Below the pieces are notes generated by a model. That model did not search any database. It worked only from the letters and a program-made list of their open reading frames with translations, and had not been told where the DNA came from. The position numbers and the translations under genes are program-made. DNA of 64,000 bases from Bremerella sp. P1. GTDB lineage: Bacteria; Planctomycetota; Planctomycetia; Pirellulales; Pirellulaceae. Positions 13,227-59,160 of this stretch are shown piece after piece (the stretch's first letter is position 1; every line of letters starts with the position of its first letter). The DNA lies in the NCBI RefSeq assembly GCF_028748185.1, contig NZ_CP118164.1:558001-622000 (forward strand), given 5' to 3'.

Positions 13227-15863
13227 CTACGATGCCTGCTCGACGAGGGCTTCGCCCAAGGTGCGTTTGATCGCCTCGAGTCGCTCTTCGTCGAAGATCT
13301 TCTTGCCATCCGAATCGGTAACGTAAAACACGTCAACGACCTGATCCAAGTGCGTCGTGATCCGGGCCACGTGAACGCTCAGGTCGATATCGTAGAGCAT
13401 TCGTGAAATCAGGTAGAGCAGTCCCTGGCGGTCCTGCGTAAAGACCTCGACGATCGTAAACTGATCGGACGTCTCGTTGTCGATTTTGATTTCCGTAGGA
13501 ATCGGAATCGCTTCTTCTGCCAGCCGCTGAACGCGCGAGGTCCACGTCGATGTGAACGTCGGGGCTTTCTCCTCCGAGGCCGTCAGGTATTTACGAATGC
13601 GTTGGCAAATATCCTCCATCCGCTCAGGCGGCGACTGGCCATCGTGATCTTGGTCTTGCACGAAGTACCGGTCGAGAACCAGCCCATCGGCGAGCGTGTT
13701 GATCTCGGCGGCGAGAATCGTCATCCGCTGGCTGGTCACTGCGGCGGTCAGGCGATGGAAGACACCTTGCATCAGGGCTTCCCGCGTACCGATCGTAATC
13801 TCTAGCACGCCGCGATCTTCGCGGTACTGACACGCGACCATCGGCGAGTCGTCCTTCATCGCGTGCAGCTGTTCCAAGTCGCGAACAATCTGCGTGGCGG
13901 GCGTTTCCTGGAGGAAGCCTTCAGGCAACGAATCGATCACGTGGCGGTACCACTCTTCGTTTTCGTGGCCGCGAACCAGCGATGCCAGTCGATCGAGTTT
14001 CTTACGCCGCTGGGCAACCGTATCGACCGTGTCGTCCCCGCCCAGGTTCTGCATCGAACGTCGATAAAGATCGGTGAGGACTCGCACTTTCCAGTCGTTA
14101 AGCGTGCCGGGGCCGACGCCAGCGAAGTCAGCACACGTCAGCACGAACAGCATCCGCATTCGCTCGGCCGGACCGTTCTCCATGGCGAAGCTCAGCACCA
14201 ACTGTTCATCGGAAGTGTCGCGACGAAACGCCAGGTGCGACATGGTCAGGTGATGCAGCACCAGGTGCACGAGCGTCTCTTTGTCCTGTGGAGACAACCA
14301 GAGCCGATCGGCAACTTCCGCAGCGATGCGAGCCCCTACGATGCTGTGATCTTCGGAAAACCCTTTCCCCAGATCGTGAATCAGCAGGGCCAGGTGCAGT
14401 AGCCACTTTTTCTTGATCTTCATGTACACCGCCCCCAGCGTATCGTCCCGCTCGAGGAACTGGGTGGCACACTCGACCGTCTTAATGCAATGGGCGTCGA
14501 CGGTGTACTTGTGATACTGATTGAACTGCAACAGGCACCGGGCGTGAGCCATGCCGGGGACAATCTTTTCCAACAGCCGCAATTCATGCAATCGACGCAG
14601 CAGTTCACCCAGTCGACCAGGCTCGGACAAGAACGTCAAAAACGCCTTGCGAGTCGCTTCGGTCATTTCGATTTCGCCTTGACCCTGCATCTTGCTGCGG
14701 ATCACTTCCCAGGTCGGGTGATCGATCTGACGGTTAAACCGACTGGCCGCAATCATCAGCTCCAAGACCTGGTCAATCTGACCAGCGCGGTGCTGCTTCC
14801 ATCGCTTCGACGTACTGATGCGATAAGGCCCCACATGAAAATCACGATCGACACGGCGGGTCATGATCGGGCCGAAGATCGTCGTGATGGGGGACTGAGG
14901 TCGGATCGAGGCGATGAAGTGCCGGGCCGCGTCGCGGACGCCACCGGTCTGCTCGAAGTAGGTCTGCATGAACTGCTCGACCGGCAACAGCCCATCGGTT
15001 CCTTTGAATCCATACAACTCGGCAATGCGAATCTGCTCGGCGCGATCGAGCAAGTCAGACGACTTGCCGGCATGGAAGTGCAGTTCGTTTCTCAGTCGCA
15101 AAAGATACTCACGGGCGTCTCGCAGTATCTTGCGATCGCGGTCTGAGATCGCACCGATGCGATTGAGTGCGTCCATATCATTTTCGCCAAACTTGGCGAA
15201 GCCGAGCCAACGCACCATCTGGATTCCACGCAAAGCTCCACTCGAGCGTTTAATGTTCGGCTCGAGCAGGTGGACGATCTCGCCATACTGGGCGCGTTCT
15301 TCGTCTCGCGACGCCATGATCGCGTGATAGAGTCTCCGGAAGTGAAGCTTTCCCTTTCGACGAAAGGGCTCGGCAAAGTCGCGGAACAGTCCGACACTAC
15401 CAGCGAGGAAGCGATTCTCGGCCAGCGAAGTGAAGATCGTTGCATCGGAAAGTGCCGCCGAGATCGCCTGCTTCGGCGTTCTCAGACTATGTCCCAAAAT
15501 CAGCCCTACGTCGAACACGTCTTGCTGCAGCCGCTTGGTGAACTGTATCGCCGGTTCGCGAAAGGTTGGCGAGTGCATGATCATCAAGTCGATGTCGGAG
15601 TACGGAGCCGTGTCACGTCGTCCATAACCACCATGCGGAACGATCGTGATGTTGCTCAATACGCGCTCGGAGGTGAACCCCGGCACGTCTTCCGCTGCGG
15701 CGTTGACCAGTTCCAAAAGGATGGCATCGAAGCAATCGGTGATTTGCGCGCATAACTGAACACCAGGCGTACCGGCCTGATGCTGGCGTTTGAGTTTTTC
15801 TCGGTCCGCTGCGAGCTTCTGTTTTGCTGCGATAACCGATTCACGAAGGCGCAGTGCTGCCAT
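13227..15863 (-). CDS. glnD: Bifunctional PII uridylyltransferase/uridylyl-removing enzyme
   Basis: GlnD senses glutamine and adds or removes UMP on Tyr51 of PII. The frame can begin at a TTG at 15887, but ATG 15863 (MAALRLRES) is chosen because the TTG sits right at the T-tract of a terminator. The 878-residue product has the nucleotidyltransferase motif HGGYGRRDTAPYSDIDLMI (about residue 90), an HD domain (VDAHCIKTVE and LLIHDLGKGF, around 450-510) for UMP removal, and two C-terminal ACT domains (ITIGTREALMQGVFHRLTAA and EVFTQDRQGLLYLISRMLYD) that bind glutamine. Length matches the family. It follows amtB-glnB on the same strand but is separated from glnB by an intrinsic terminator. Confidence 0.96.
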   Translation of the reverse strand: MAALRLRESVIAAKQKLAADREKLKRQHQAGTPGVQLCAQITDCFDAILLELVNAAAEDVPGFTSERVLSNITIVPHGGYGRRDTAPYSDIDLMIMHSPTFREPAIQFTKRLQQDVFDVGLILGHSLRTPKQAISAALSDATIFTSLAENRFLAGSVGLFRDFAEPFRRKGKLHFRRLYHAIMASRDEERAQYGEIVHLLEPNIKRSSGALRGIQMVRWLGFAKFGENDMDALNRIGAISDRDRKILRDAREYLLRLRNELHFHAGKSSDLLDRAEQIRIAELYGFKGTDGLLPVEQFMQTYFEQTGGVRDAARHFIASIRPQSPITTIFGPIMTRRVDRDFHVGPYRISTSKRWKQHRAGQIDQVLELMIAASRFNRQIDHPTWEVIRSKMQGQGEIEMTEATRKAFLTFLSEPGRLGELLRRLHELRLLEKIVPGMAHARCLLQFNQYHKYTVDAHCIKTVECATQFLERDDTLGAVYMKIKKKWLLHLALLIHDLGKGFSEDHSIVGARIAAEVADRLWLSPQDKETLVHLVLHHLTMSHLAFRRDTSDEQLVLSFAMENGPAERMRMLFVLTCADFAGVGPGTLNDWKVRVLTDLYRRSMQNLGGDDTVDTVAQRRKKLDRLASLVRGHENEEWYRHVIDSLPEGFLQETPATQIVRDLEQLHAMKDDSPMVACQYREDRGVLEITIGTREALMQGVFHRLTAAVTSQRMTILAAEINTLADGLVLDRYFVQDQDHDGQSPPERMEDICQRIRKYLTASEEKAPTFTSTWTSRVQRLAEEAIPIPTEIKIDNETSDQFTIVEVFTQDRQGLLYLISRMLYDIDLSVHVARITTHLDQVVDVFYVTDSDGKKIFDEERLEAIKRTLGEALVEQAS

Positions 15864-15887
15864 GGAATGCTTCGCCTGTCTCTTCAA

Positions 15888-15925
15888 GTAAAAAAACGGC
15901 GCCGACTCAACTCGGTGGCGCCGTT
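15888..15925 (-). terminator. Intrinsic terminator between glnB and glnD
   Basis: On the minus strand the sequence reads AACGGCGCC (15925-15917), a 13-nt loop region, GGCGCCGTT (15903-15895), then a run of seven T (15894-15888). The nine-base perfect GC-rich stem plus T-tract is a textbook rho-independent terminator. It would end the amtB-glnB transcript immediately before glnD, so glnD depends on read-through or on its own promoter. Confidence 0.85.
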
Positions 15926-15961
15926 CCTAGTTTAGTCCAATTAGTTATCCGTGCCGGTCAT

Positions 15962-16321
<360 letters not shown>

Positions 16322-16404
16322 TTAGTTCTGTTCGATGGACCGAGCCAGTCACGCCTGGCCCGGTCGTAAAATATGAAAATGCATCGCCCTGATGGCGTGC
16401 GACG

Positions 16405-17880
16405 TTAGCTGAAGATGTAGCCTTCTTCCCCGTGTTCGGAGATATCCAGACCACGGATTTCGCTTTCCTGGGTCACTCGCAGGCCGATGACAATATCAAT
16501 CAGCTTCAGCAAGATCACGGTAGCCACCACCGAAAAGGCGATCGTTACCAACACGGCAACCACCTGGCCGATGACAAGCGAAACACCGCCCCCTTCGTAC
16601 AAGCCGATCGGTTCGCCACCGGTCAAGTCGCCACAAACGTGACGCGAAGCAAAGACACCGGTGAGCACGGCTCCCAAGGTTCCACCAACGCCGTGAACGC
16701 CAAACGCGTCCAGCGAGTCGTCGTAGCCCATGCTTTGTTTCAGCACAGCACATGCGTAGTAGCAAACAATCCCTGCGGCGGCTCCCATGGCCAGTGCGGG
16801 CATCGGCAAAACGAAGCCAGCGGCCGGGGTAATACAAACCAGACCGGCAACCGCACCCGAAGCACATCCGAGCACGCTCGGCTTGCCACGCAGGATCCAT
16901 TCCATCAGCGACCAAGCCACCGCACCGGCAGCAGCCGAGAAGTGCGTGACGGCAAATGCGTTCGAGGCCAGGCCATTCGCGGCACCAGCACTACCGGCAT
17001 TGAAGCCAAACCAACCGACCCACAGCATGGCGGCACCTAGCGTGGTGTAGGTCAAGTTGTGCGGACGCATGTCGTCGTGGCCAAAGCCCAAACGCTTTCC
17101 AACAAAGATCGCACAAACCAACGCCGAGATCCCGGAGCTGATATGCACCACGGTACCACCAGCAAAGTCCAGCGCGCCACCGGCCAGCGAATCGGCTTCT
17201 CCGTAGGCGAGAATCCCGCCGTCCCACACCCAGTGACAAAGCGGGCAGTAGACCAGCGTTCCCCACAGGACCGAGAAGACCGCCATCGCCGAGAACTTCA
17301 TCCGTTCGGCAAACGCACCGCAGATCAGTGCCGGAGTGATGATAAAGAACATCCCTTGGAACAACATGAACGTGTATTCCGGAATGGTTCCGTGCATCGG
17401 AGTAACCGGCTCGCCCAGTTCGGCATCCCAGGCCGGTTGGACGTTGTTCATAAACAGAAACTCAAGATCGCCGAAATAGGGATTCGAGCCACCGAAGCAA
17501 AGGGTGTACCCCCACAGGCTCCAGACGACCGTCATCAGGCCCATCAGGAAGAGACACTGCATCATCACGCCCAAGACATTCTTTTTGCGAACCAAGCCGC
17601 TGTAGAACATCGCCAGACCAGGGGCGGTCATGAATAGAACCAGCGCACTGGAAGTCAGCATCCAGGCATTGTCGCCGGTATCGAGCCCAGGGGTCTCTTC
17701 TTCAGGGACCTCCACTTCGCCAGCGTTGCCGGCTTCGACCGGGACGTTCTTCTCTTCAGCCGGCGGTTGCTCGTTCGTCTCAGGAGCGAGTTGGGCCGCC
17801 AACGGCTGACATAGGATGAGTCCGACTAACATAGTGATCAGCGCGCAAGCCGATCGTCCTCGAAGGAAATACGTGCGCAT
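16405..17880 (-). CDS. amtB: Ammonium transporter, bacterial AmtB type, with acidic N-terminal extension
   Basis: The 491-residue product has a signal peptide (ACALITMLVGLILCQPLAAQ), an acidic Pro/Glu linker of about 40 residues, then the Amt core of eleven membrane helices. The core opens with the standard LDTGDNAWMLTSSALVLFMT. The pore histidines are in GTVVHISSGISALV and DAFGVHGVGGTLG; the C-terminal tail EIRGLDISEHGEEGYIF carries the PII-contact region. GGAG is six bases before the ATG. It is the first gene of amtB-glnB. I found no sigma-54 type promoter in the 230 bp upstream, unlike the second amt gene. The linker before the channel is longer than in E. coli AmtB. Confidence 0.95.
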   Translation of the reverse strand: MRTYFLRGRSACALITMLVGLILCQPLAAQLAPETNEQPPAEEKNVPVEAGNAGEVEVPEEETPGLDTGDNAWMLTSSALVLFMTAPGLAMFYSGLVRKKNVLGVMMQCLFLMGLMTVVWSLWGYTLCFGGSNPYFGDLEFLFMNNVQPAWDAELGEPVTPMHGTIPEYTFMLFQGMFFIITPALICGAFAERMKFSAMAVFSVLWGTLVYCPLCHWVWDGGILAYGEADSLAGGALDFAGGTVVHISSGISALVCAIFVGKRLGFGHDDMRPHNLTYTTLGAAMLWVGWFGFNAGSAGAANGLASNAFAVTHFSAAAGAVAWSLMEWILRGKPSVLGCASGAVAGLVCITPAAGFVLPMPALAMGAAAGIVCYYACAVLKQSMGYDDSLDAFGVHGVGGTLGAVLTGVFASRHVCGDLTGGEPIGLYEGGGVSLVIGQVVAVLVTIAFSVVATVILLKLIDIVIGLRVTQESEIRGLDISEHGEEGYIFS

Positions 17881-56709: not shown

Positions 56710-56724
56710 TGGCACAACGCTTGC
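56710..56724 (+). promoter_or_regulatory. Sigma-54-type promoter of amtB2
   Basis: TGGCACAACGCTTGC differs from the RpoN consensus TGGCACG-N4-TTGC only at the seventh base, with GG and GC at correct spacing. It lies 133 bases upstream of the amtB2 start at 56858, leaving a leader of about 120 nt. Confidence 0.88.
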
Positions 56725-56857
56725 GATCAGGGGTGCGTTGTGCACACGACCCTGCGTGGGAAGGCGCACTCAGAGATGTCCCACGTTGGATCGATTCCTG
56801 GCCCTGGCATATAGCTGGCTGATGTTTGTTTCATCTTATGTAAAAGGTACGAATCAC

Positions 56858-58360
56858 ATGGTAAGTTCCCTCTCCCTCCCCAACCGAGTGTGGTTTGCGA
56901 TGCTCGCAATCGCCCTCGGCCTCATGATCTCTTACCCGCTTTCGGCGCAAGACGCCGGAACGCCGGCATCGGAAGATGCTCCGATGGCTGAAGCCGGCGA
57001 ACCCAAAGCTGAAGAAGCCGCCACCGAAGAAGGCCCTGCTGAAGAAGAGGAAGCTGAAGAACCTCTCACCGCAGACGCCGTGCTTGGCGACGTTGACACG
57101 CTTTGGACCTGCCTGGCAGCGTTCCTCGTGTTCTTCATGCAGGCTGGTTTCGCTTTAGTCGAAGCTGGTTTCACGCGTGCTAAGAACGCTTGTAACATCG
57201 TTATGAAAAACCTGATGGACTTCTCCATCGGTTCTTTGTCTTTCTGGTTGATTGGTTTCGGCCTGATGTTCGGTCACACCAACGGCTTCCTCGGAACGGA
57301 CATGTTCCTGTTCGACGGTGGTAGTGAAGCTGCCATGGAAGTCAACTCGAACGTTGGTTTCAACTGGGCCTTCCTGATCTTCCAAACCGTGTTCTGTGCT
57401 ACTGCCGCGACGATTGTTTCGGGTGCAATGGCTGAACGAACCAAGTTCACCGCTTACCTCGTCTACTCGGTTCTGATCACCGTGATCGTTTACCCGATCT
57501 TCGGTAGCTGGGCTTGGGGTGGTCTTTACGCTGGTGGCGGCTGGCTCGAAGGCATGGAAACTGGTTTCTACGACTTCGCTGGTTCGACCGTGGTTCACTC
57601 GATCGGTGGTTGGGCTGCTTTGGCCGGTGCCATCACGATCGGTCCACGTATCGGTAAGTACACTGCTGACGGTAAGGTTAAGCCAATTCCAGGTCACAGC
57701 ATTCCGCTGGGTGCCTTGGGTGTGTTCATCCTCTGGTTGGGTTGGTTCGGCTTTAATCCTGGTTCGACCACGGCTGTTGGTGGTGGTTCGTTCGCTTACA
57801 TCGCTGTCACCACGAACCTGGCTGCTGCAGCCGGTGTGGTTGGTGCCATGATCACTTCGTGGATCATGTTCAGCAAGCCTGACACCTCGTTCACCTTGAA
57901 CGGTGCTCTCGCTGGTCTGGTCTCCATTACCGCTGGTTGTGATGCCCTGAGCCCAGCTTGGGCAGCTGTTGCCGGTTTGATCGGTGGCGTGATCGTGGTT
58001 CTCTCCTGTGTGATGTTCGACAAGCTGAAGATTGACGATCCCGTCGGTGCTGTCTCGGTCCACGGTGTTTGTGGTGCCTGGGGTACGCTGGCAGTTGGCC
58101 TGTTCATGACCGATGGCGGTCTGGTCAACGGTGGTGGTCCTGCTCAGCTGATCACCCAAATCATTGGTGTCGCAGTCGGCTTCGTCTGGGCCTTCGGCGT
58201 CAGCTTTGTGATCTTCAACCTGATCAAGTTCACCATGGGCTTGCGAGTCAGTGCTGAAGAAGAAATGGCCGGTCTCGATATCCACGAGCACGGCATGTAC
58301 GCCTACCCAGCTCACCTGGTTTCCGAAGGAACCCAGCAAGCTGGCCACGTCGCCTCCTAA
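56858..58360 (+). CDS. amtB: Second ammonium transporter, different Amt subtype
   Basis: ATG 56858 (MVSSLSLPNRVWFAMLAIAL) opens a signal peptide cleaved near PLSAQ. The 500-residue product then has an acidic linker rich in Glu and Ala (about 30-70), and the channel proper, whose first helix reads TLWTCLAAFLVFFMQAGFAL followed by VEAGFTRAKNA. This start is that of the cyanobacterial/plant-like Amt subtype and differs from amtB1. The pore histidines lie in GSTVVHSIGGWAALAG and VSVHGVCGAWGTLAVG; the C-terminal tail has EEEMAGLDIHEHGMYAY for PII contact. Codons are biased to GGT, GCT and GTT, suggesting high expression. A sigma-54 promoter precedes it. Confidence 0.95.
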   Translation: MVSSLSLPNRVWFAMLAIALGLMISYPLSAQDAGTPASEDAPMAEAGEPKAEEAATEEGPAEEEEAEEPLTADAVLGDVDTLWTCLAAFLVFFMQAGFALVEAGFTRAKNACNIVMKNLMDFSIGSLSFWLIGFGLMFGHTNGFLGTDMFLFDGGSEAAMEVNSNVGFNWAFLIFQTVFCATAATIVSGAMAERTKFTAYLVYSVLITVIVYPIFGSWAWGGLYAGGGWLEGMETGFYDFAGSTVVHSIGGWAALAGAITIGPRIGKYTADGKVKPIPGHSIPLGALGVFILWLGWFGFNPGSTTAVGGGSFAYIAVTTNLAAAAGVVGAMITSWIMFSKPDTSFTLNGALAGLVSITAGCDALSPAWAAVAGLIGGVIVVLSCVMFDKLKIDDPVGAVSVHGVCGAWGTLAVGLFMTDGGLVNGGGPAQLITQIIGVAVGFVWAFGVSFVIFNLIKFTMGLRVSAEEEMAGLDIHEHGMYAYPAHLVSEGTQQAGHVAS

Positions 58361-58465
58361 GACTGAATGTTTGAAAGCCAACCTCGCGGGCTTTGCCCTG
58401 GGCATTGCCCGCGATGTTAATGAAGACACTTCGGCCTTTGCCTGGGCCAGAAGTTCTACCCCAAT

Positions 58466-58512
58466 GACTTGGAAGGGTGTTCCGCCTCGCTCTTCCAAGT
58501 CGGGGTTTTTTT
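58466..58512 (+). terminator. Intrinsic terminator after amtB2
   Basis: GACTTGGAAG (58466-58475) pairs with CTTCCAAGTC (58492-58501); flanking CCCC (58459-58462) and GGGG (58502-58505) can extend the stem across a small bulge. Seven T follow (58506-58512). It lies between amtB2 and the second PII gene, so that gene is not simply the second cistron of an uninterrupted operon. Confidence 0.88.
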
Positions 58513-58812: not shown

Positions 58813-59160
58813 ATGAAACTTGTGATTGCCATCATTCAGCCAAGCCGCTTGGAAGCCGTCAAGGAAGCCTTGACCGAGGTAGAGGTTTTTCGTCTGACGG
58901 TGATGGATTGCCAGGGTTTCGGCCGCCAAAAGGGGCAAACCGAGGTCTATCGAGGGCACGAGTTCACGGTCAACCTGCTTCGTAAGGTCCAGCTGCAGAT
59001 CGCGGTGAACGAGGATTTCGTCGAACCCACCATCGACGCGATCGTGAAGGGGGCTCGATCGAGCGACAAGGGAGAAATCGGAGACGGCAAAATCTTCGTC
59101 GTGCCGATGGATGACTGTATCCGAATTCGCACCGGCGAACGCGGTCCAGAAGCAATCTAA
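58813..59160 (+). CDS. glnK: Second PII protein, with Phe at position 51
   Basis: The 115-residue product is a complete PII protein: start MKLVIAIIQPSRLEAVKEAL, ligand-loop residues GFGRQKGQTEVYRGHEFTVN, GDGKIFVVPMDDC and the C-terminal IRIRTGERGPEAI. Counting from Met1, position 51 is Phe (TTC at 58963-58965), where GlnB-1 has Tyr, so UMP cannot be attached at the canonical residue. Tyr46 remains. The protein can still bind ATP and 2-oxoglutarate and probably gates the adjacent amtB2 through its T-loop. Its gene lies 452 bp behind amtB2, with a terminator and a repeat element between, so it may have its own promoter. Confidence 0.96.
   Translation: MKLVIAIIQPSRLEAVKEALTEVEVFRLTVMDCQGFGRQKGQTEVYRGHEFTVNLLRKVQLQIAVNEDFVEPTIDAIVKGARSSDKGEIGDGKIFVVPMDDCIRIRTGERGPEAI

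Follow-up and report, generated by a model that had tools for sequence, protein, structure and literature searches.

Control of ammonium transporters by PII proteins that are not covalently modified is already known, in archaea and in mutants. The Tyr51Ala mutant of E. coli GlnK associates with AmtB and leaves it in response to nitrogen (excerpts of PMC4274968 and PMC4285133), and its response is faster after ammonium shock (excerpt of PMC4274968); among archaea, the GlnK of A. fulgidus is stated to be without Tyr51 (excerpt of PMC10714827). Because the mutant still cycles on AmtB and a natural GlnK does without the residue, blindness to GlnD would be workable rather than exotic. The same excerpt of PMC10714827 gives M. 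mazei GlnK1 as carrying Tyr51 where no GlnD exists, so that a tyrosine need not mean modification. A standing question is what covalent modification contributes to PII function beyond direct sensing of effectors; in E. coli it has been approached with engineered Tyr51 mutants. In Bremerella sp. P1 (Pirellulaceae), both kinds of PII occur naturally in one cell, as they do in most of the family; some relatives keep the tyrosine, and others lack the enzyme. With both kinds side by side, a glnD deletion or a single residue change could separate the two inputs. Across the titles and abstract openings of the open-licence PMC literature, we found no report of a natural, lineage-wide Tyr51-less PII paralogue beside GlnD and a Tyr51 PII, and no study of PII control in planctomycetes. 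We describe such a paralogue, PII-3, from a stretch of 64,000 nucleotides of this genome (hereafter, the window; coordinates refer to it unless a locus is named).

PII-3 and the other PII, GlnD and Amt genes of the genome

The genes of the window that bear on PII modification are as follows.

58813–59160, forward strand: PII-3, a GlnK-like P-II protein (translation, PF00543 match and orthologue alignment)
15962–16300, reverse strand: PII-1, of GlnB/GlnK type, with Tyr51 and linked to glnD (genome PII search and alignment)
13227–15887, reverse strand: GlnD, PII nucleotidyltransferase of 886 aa; no second GlnD was found in the genome
16405–17880, reverse strand: amt1, the ammonium transporter adjoining PII-1 (Amt domain search)

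The forward frame at 58813–59160 translates to a P-II protein of 115 aa that matches Pfam PF00543 with 96.3 bits (cut-off 25), which places it in the PII (GlnB/GlnK) family by its domain, and its scores lie below the NCBIfam GlnK/GlnB equivalog cut-offs (115.5 vs 181 for NF007946; 113.7 vs 202 for NF008111). Among solved structures, M. mazei GlnK1 matches it best (8tge, 131.7 bits), and its B-loop exceeds that of PII-1 by three residues. In the T-loop, Tyr46 and Arg47 are kept and residue 51 is phenylalanine, encoded by TTC at 58963–58965, as the first-pass annotation had read it. That annotation had also raised a sequencing error at these three bases. Because the PII-3 protein of a same-genus genome (G043) is 100% identical, such an error at codon 51 is unlikely, and we reject it as an explanation. 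Named relatives, for example Blastopirellula marina (92% identical), point to the Pirellulaceae; in B. marina DSM 3645, whose genome has GlnD, locus L089 also reads Phe51. PII-3 lacks the Tyr51 expected of a GlnD-modified PII in a genome that does encode a GlnD (one, at 13227–15887).

The count of two PII proteins in the first-pass annotation did not stand: a search of the whole genome (one contig, 6.96 Mb) gave five PII-family genes (C1 positions 573983, 616813, 2070196, 2802666 and 4844006), and PII-1, PII-2 and PII-4 all have Tyr51. PII-4 (L037:6004–6351, forward strand) is the sister of PII-3, with 50% identity and Phe46 next to its Tyr51, and has none of the genome's five Amt domains nearby; in relatives, 17 of 18 PII-4 rows have Tyr51. 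PII-5 (L038:5628–6011, forward strand) is a distant PII-like protein with the T-loop YSESEY, and it faces, about 1.8 kb off on the opposite strand, the GlnE-like frame, which is the only one of the genome (1046 aa, two PF08335 matches). There is likewise one RpoN gene. Two of the five Amt domains lie beside PII genes; the remaining three (L045, L046 and L047) are probably fused to other domains, because their open frames measure 1270, 1298 and 775 aa.

The Tyr51 PII had been placed by glnD in the first-pass annotation, and PII-1, GlnD and amt1 were indeed found clustered (13227–17880, reverse strand), in an arrangement like the actinobacterial amtB-glnK-glnD operon.

Residue 51 in the family and in the phylum

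PII-3 orthologues were found in 54 of 60 family genomes at 71–100% identity, one of them as a partial match, and residue 51 was read in 53 rows, one per genome and including the window. It is Phe in 33 rows, Leu in seven, Ile in four, Val and Gly in two each, Pro, Met and Ser in one each, and Tyr in two; Tyr51 is absent from 51 of the 53 orthologues. The glnD-linked PII-1 has Tyr51 in all 38 rows read (37 genomes, G045 twice). Of the 60 family genomes, 56 gave a GlnD of nearly full length; the other four comprise two without a match (78% and 86% complete), one with fragments only (72% complete) and one (91% complete) with only a weak match, which falls in a frame as long as GlnE. Nearly all genomes thus kept the enzyme although one paralogue lost Tyr51, and every glnD-linked PII that was read still has the tyrosine. 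The alignment of Pirellulaceae PII proteins at residue 51, which the first-pass annotation had put forward as a check, thus extends its claim that PII-3 lacks the canonical GlnD target from one genome to the lineage: it supports a loss of Tyr51 that is shared across the lineage and is no isolated oddity, and speaks against a recent point change, which we reject. There are exceptions, as two family genomes (G053 and G045) and one of the same order (G225) carry PII-1 yet have a PII-3 with Tyr51, which is also found in the PII-3-type proteins of the named loci L113 and L120.

For a wider comparison, residue 51 was tallied in 155 rows, which count some genomes twice (L143 = G115, L153 = G229) and omit the copies of window genes (L007, L039, L041, L043 and L044). 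Rows were also sorted into four groups by GlnD and PII-1. Tyr51 is found in 40 of 40 rows of glnD-linked PII-1 (39 genomes, G045 read twice) and in 26 of 26 rows of PII-3-type proteins from genomes with GlnD and without PII-1 (24 genomes, two read twice). For PII-3 in genomes taken to have PII-1, the count is 3 of 57; here 33 of the 53 family genomes with a PII-3 reading also have a PII-1 reading, PII-1 was taken as present in the other 20, as it was for L089, L098 and L121, and G022, G024 and G050, among the 53, have no full GlnD match. Finally, Tyr51 is found in none of the 27 rows of PII-3-type proteins from genomes without GlnD, three of which have Glu51 that may be an alignment shift. L123, with a partial GlnD and Phe51, was kept outside the last group, and L071, whose frame is broken beside unknown bases, reads Ile51.

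GlnD itself was searched in 40 planctomycete genomes, of which 27 had a match and no PII-1 was found in them, and 11 had none. With G169 and G285 (Tyr) and G224 (non-Tyr) added, Tyr51 is present in 26 of these 27 genomes with GlnD and without PII-1. In six of them (G191, G123, G176, G206, G265 and G095) the PII-3-type gene adjoins glnD; GlnD is fragmentary in G202, G138 and G095. GlnD was likewise not found in 12 of 13 examined genomes of Isosphaeraceae/Gemmataceae type (seven so named, the rest placed by the tree). Its absence is not certain in each of these genomes, because the 11 are 81–99% complete and the completeness of the Isosphaeraceae/Gemmataceae-type genomes is not stated. An excerpt of PMC10714827 describes bacterial carriers of sP36, including Isosphaeraceae, as being without GlnD.

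Several genomes have further PII proteins. PII-3-type copies number two in G199 and three in G123, all with Tyr51, and G285 has an additional PII with Ile at residue 51. The further matches read in G115, G120, G191, G199 and G229 are distant PII-like proteins (≤42% identity to PII-3, ≤48% to PII-1); those of other genomes score ≤58 bits. The planctomycete G224 (L250, L307, L308 and L270) has a very divergent GlnD, two PII-3-like proteins with Val and Phe at residue 51, one with a scrambled T-loop, and a distant PII-like protein with Tyr at the place of residue 51.

In a PII tree of 208 rows (T-loop columns removed, PII-5 [L038] left out, many forks unresolved), most Tyr51-less proteins fall into one group of 138 rows (SH-aLRT 91), which also takes in PII-4 and the Tyr51 rows L018, L065, L113, L120 and L177. 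Outside it are the Tyr51-less L194 and L235 and Tyr51 relatives from genomes that belong to other classes of the phylum. In a GlnD tree of 21 rows (without outgroup), the nine GlnDs encoded next to PII-1 group in a single clade (SH-aLRT 100). The GlnD of the distant genome G063 falls in this clade, a sign that the amt1–PII-1–glnD cluster may be a cassette moving as a unit; G063 has a PII-3-like protein with Phe51 and an adjacent Amt. The contrasts between GlnD, PII-1 and Tyr51 rest on few independent changes of residue 51, two on starred branches and five on the whole best tree, and these are too few for a pairs test to reach significance (two pairs: the GlnD-based label went in the same direction once and showed no difference once).

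The pattern fits a loss of Tyr51 upon loss or replacement of the original GlnD. The PII-3 lineage would once have been a GlnD substrate, since Tyr51 is kept in 26 of the 27 sampled genomes with GlnD and without PII-1, and the tyrosine would have been lost where GlnD was lost or where another GlnD arrived with PII-1 as its own substrate. A strict rule by which Tyr51 persists only where GlnD acts is weakened by G053, G045, G225, L113, L120, G224, PII-4 and M. mazei GlnK1.

The amt3 neighbourhood and a conserved RNA element

Upstream of PII-3 lie three features on the same strand.

56710–56724, forward strand: sigma-54 −24/−12 type site, TGGCAC-N5-TTGC (motif search; about 150 bases before the amt3 ATG)
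56858–58360, forward strand: amt3, an ammonium transporter (PF00909, 408 bits; start codon inferred)
58412–58511, forward strand: conserved structured RNA element (a hairpin, a long hairpin with conserved loop letters and a T run)

The amt3 frame with an ATG start and a signal-like N-terminus is shorter than the mechanical open reading frame (56738–58360), and it ends 452 bases before the start of PII-3. The first-pass link between PII-3 and a different Amt is borne out in the window, where amt3 adjoins, and only in part elsewhere: of 54 family PII-3 loci, 23 are preceded by an Amt gene in the same orientation (22 of 53 relatives plus the window; flanks of 1.5–3 kb, some short or ending at a contig edge). 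Linkage of PII-3 to Amt is common, not universal.

The site at 56710–56724 is the only perfect sigma-54-type match in the window; with one mismatch allowed, there are eight matches vs 5.3 expected, no more than chance. Among 31 amt/PII-3 arrangements of relatives, a site with at most one mismatch precedes amt in 22 (vs 2.1% of letter shuffles) and a perfect one in 11 (vs 0% of letter shuffles). This sigma-54-type site suggests that amt3 may be expressed under nitrogen limitation.

The stretch between amt3 and PII-3 holds the RNA element, whose terminator-like stem spans 58465–58502. Because this element separates the genes, co-transcription of amt3 and PII-3 is only putative. In a 56-row alignment fitted to the model, all 14 modelled pairs change on both sides, and 95.3% of cells are paired (80.5% in shuffles). 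The covariation score, 0.644 vs 0.324, was reached by none of 500 shuffles, and the signal is lost once the pairing is slid. A covariance model gave 48 matches, many of them training sequences. They are spread over 43 of the 60 family genomes, 39 of which have a single match; under strict filters, there was none in 243 non-family genomes of the 246 searched in the phylum. The setting of 30 of the 48 matches was established: 18 lie between amt and PII-3, seven beside amt only and five beside PII-3 only, one of the last at a contig edge. In G004, G018 and G019 the element lies beside amt, with PII-3 on the same contig 14 kb, 83 kb and 2.1 Mb off. In G021, PII-3 and the RNA element are doubled, about 7 kb apart on one contig (G021:C12:192776–193120 and 199921–200265). 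We also considered a conserved small protein like M. mazei sP36 between amt3 and PII-3 and found no convincing small frame, the stretch being RNA structure.

The element could serve as the terminator of amt3 or an attenuator of PII-3, or it could yield a small RNA from the 3' end, in the way that glnA gives rise to GlnZ (excerpt of PMC9731577). In Rfam it matched only anti-hemB (16.7 bits, below the cut-off of 49.5), and no family reached its cut-off in six loci. An older motif that has no Rfam number, such as 'Rhodopirellula-1' of Weinberg et al. 2010 (excerpt of PMC2864571), could be the same element. No report of an RNA motif near ammonium transporters was found among the titles and abstract openings of the open-licence PMC literature, and the element may be the newest item here; if functional, it would give a nitrogen-linked RNA to a phylum in which no PII-control study came up.

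A proposed role for PII-3 and its relation to known systems

Twelve effector positions (29, 37–39, 41, 58, 90–93, 104 and 106), which we take to be the ATP and 2-oxoglutarate contacts of PII proteins, are invariant in all 53 PII-3 rows, and in PII-1 too, which agrees with the first-pass suggestion that PII-3 may report ligand binding. Variation in PII-3 is concentrated in the T-loop (residues 42–54: 1.21 bits per column vs 0.30 in PII-1), and outside it PII-3 is more conserved (0.44 vs 0.69 bits). Arg47, which presumably faces Amt as in known complexes, is lost in four of 53 orthologues, and several orthologues have scrambled T-loops. We tried to tie the loss of Arg47 to the loss of Amt linkage; all four lack an Amt within 3 kb, but they form a single clade, and the association therefore counts as one event.

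We consider it likely that PII-3 is a GlnK-like regulator of Amt3 that answers only to ATP, ADP and 2-oxoglutarate, with the GlnD/glutamine signal carried by PII-1. PII-3 would be a GlnK-type trimer that binds these effectors like other PII proteins, docks on the neighbouring Amt3 via its T-loop and comes off it with 2-oxoglutarate and ATP; with Tyr51 missing, the model has no covalent step on PII-3. The glutamine signal would pass through GlnD to PII-1 (perhaps also to PII-2 and PII-4), so that a PII-1-type sensor would hear glutamine and 2-oxoglutarate, and PII-3 only 2-oxoglutarate and the energy state. Residue 51, its lineage-wide loss, the invariant effector positions, the Amt neighbourhood and the sigma-54-type site are seen directly; from them we infer GlnD blindness of PII-3, blocking of Amt3 and induction under nitrogen limitation.

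The strongest competing explanation, which we hold to be rather unlikely, is that PII-3 mainly regulates a partner other than Amt3, for example glutamine synthetase, and lost Tyr51 as the partner surface changed. Its closest solved relative is such a regulator, since M. mazei GlnK1 stabilises and activates glutamine synthetase through the T-loop (excerpt of PMC10651883); moreover, no Amt was seen upstream in 31 of 54 PII-3 loci (fetched flanks, some short), and the T-loop letters drift on a frozen body. However, Amt recurs as the neighbour of PII-3 together with a shared sigma-54-type site and the RNA element, and genes for GlnK and AmtB frequently occur as pairs in prokaryotes (excerpt of PMC3831643), both of which argue for Amt3 as the partner. 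Considerably less probable is continued modification of PII-3, at Tyr46 or elsewhere in the T-loop, in which case it would still respond to GlnD or a different modifier. Tyr46 is retained in 48 of 53 family orthologues, but five lack it and several T-loops are scrambled, and proteins of PII-3 type with Tyr46 and without Tyr51 are also found in no-GlnD genomes, so Tyr46 need not be kept for GlnD. The excerpts of PMC4274968 and PMC4285133 name Tyr51 as the target. Tyr46 is not known to be used in E. coli. Simple decay, in which PII-3 loses function and its T-loop drifts, is very improbable: the T-loop is about four times as variable as in PII-1, but the body varies less than in PII-1, the effector positions are invariant, and orthologues persist across the family (54 of 60 genomes, at the identities given above).

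Beyond the likely role of PII-3 as an effector-only regulator of Amt3, we tentatively propose a GlnD-independent nitrogen module of the Pirellulaceae, which would comprise a Tyr51-less GlnK, a sigma-54-driven Amt and a structured RNA outside Rfam, either set free from the 3' region of amt3 or acting there. It would stand beside a separate amt1–PII-1–GlnD cassette, with the glutamine and 2-oxoglutarate signals on different PII proteins.

Among known systems, E. coli GlnK–AmtB is alike in having PII beside amt, a sigma-54-type promoter, Arg47 at the tip of the T-loop and the same effector positions. E. coli GlnK has Tyr51 and is uridylylated by GlnD, whereas PII-3 has Phe51 and a B-loop three residues longer, and its locus has a conserved RNA element with a terminator between amt and PII. 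The actinobacterial amtB-glnK-glnD operon (excerpt of PMC4285133) has the gene content of the amt1, PII-1 and glnD cluster, and so concerns PII-1, not PII-3. With the archaeal GlnD-free GlnKs (A. fulgidus, M. mazei GlnK1), PII-3 has in common a lengthened B-loop, partly shared with M. mazei GlnK1, and the expectation of no modification; in contrast to them, its genome has GlnD and Tyr51 PII proteins, and M. mazei GlnK1 keeps Tyr51. The E. coli GlnK Tyr51Ala mutant (excerpt of PMC4274968) is likewise a PII that is not uridylylatable at the known site, whereas PII-3 is natural, lineage-wide and a separate paralogue, mostly with Phe, Leu, Ile or Val at that residue.
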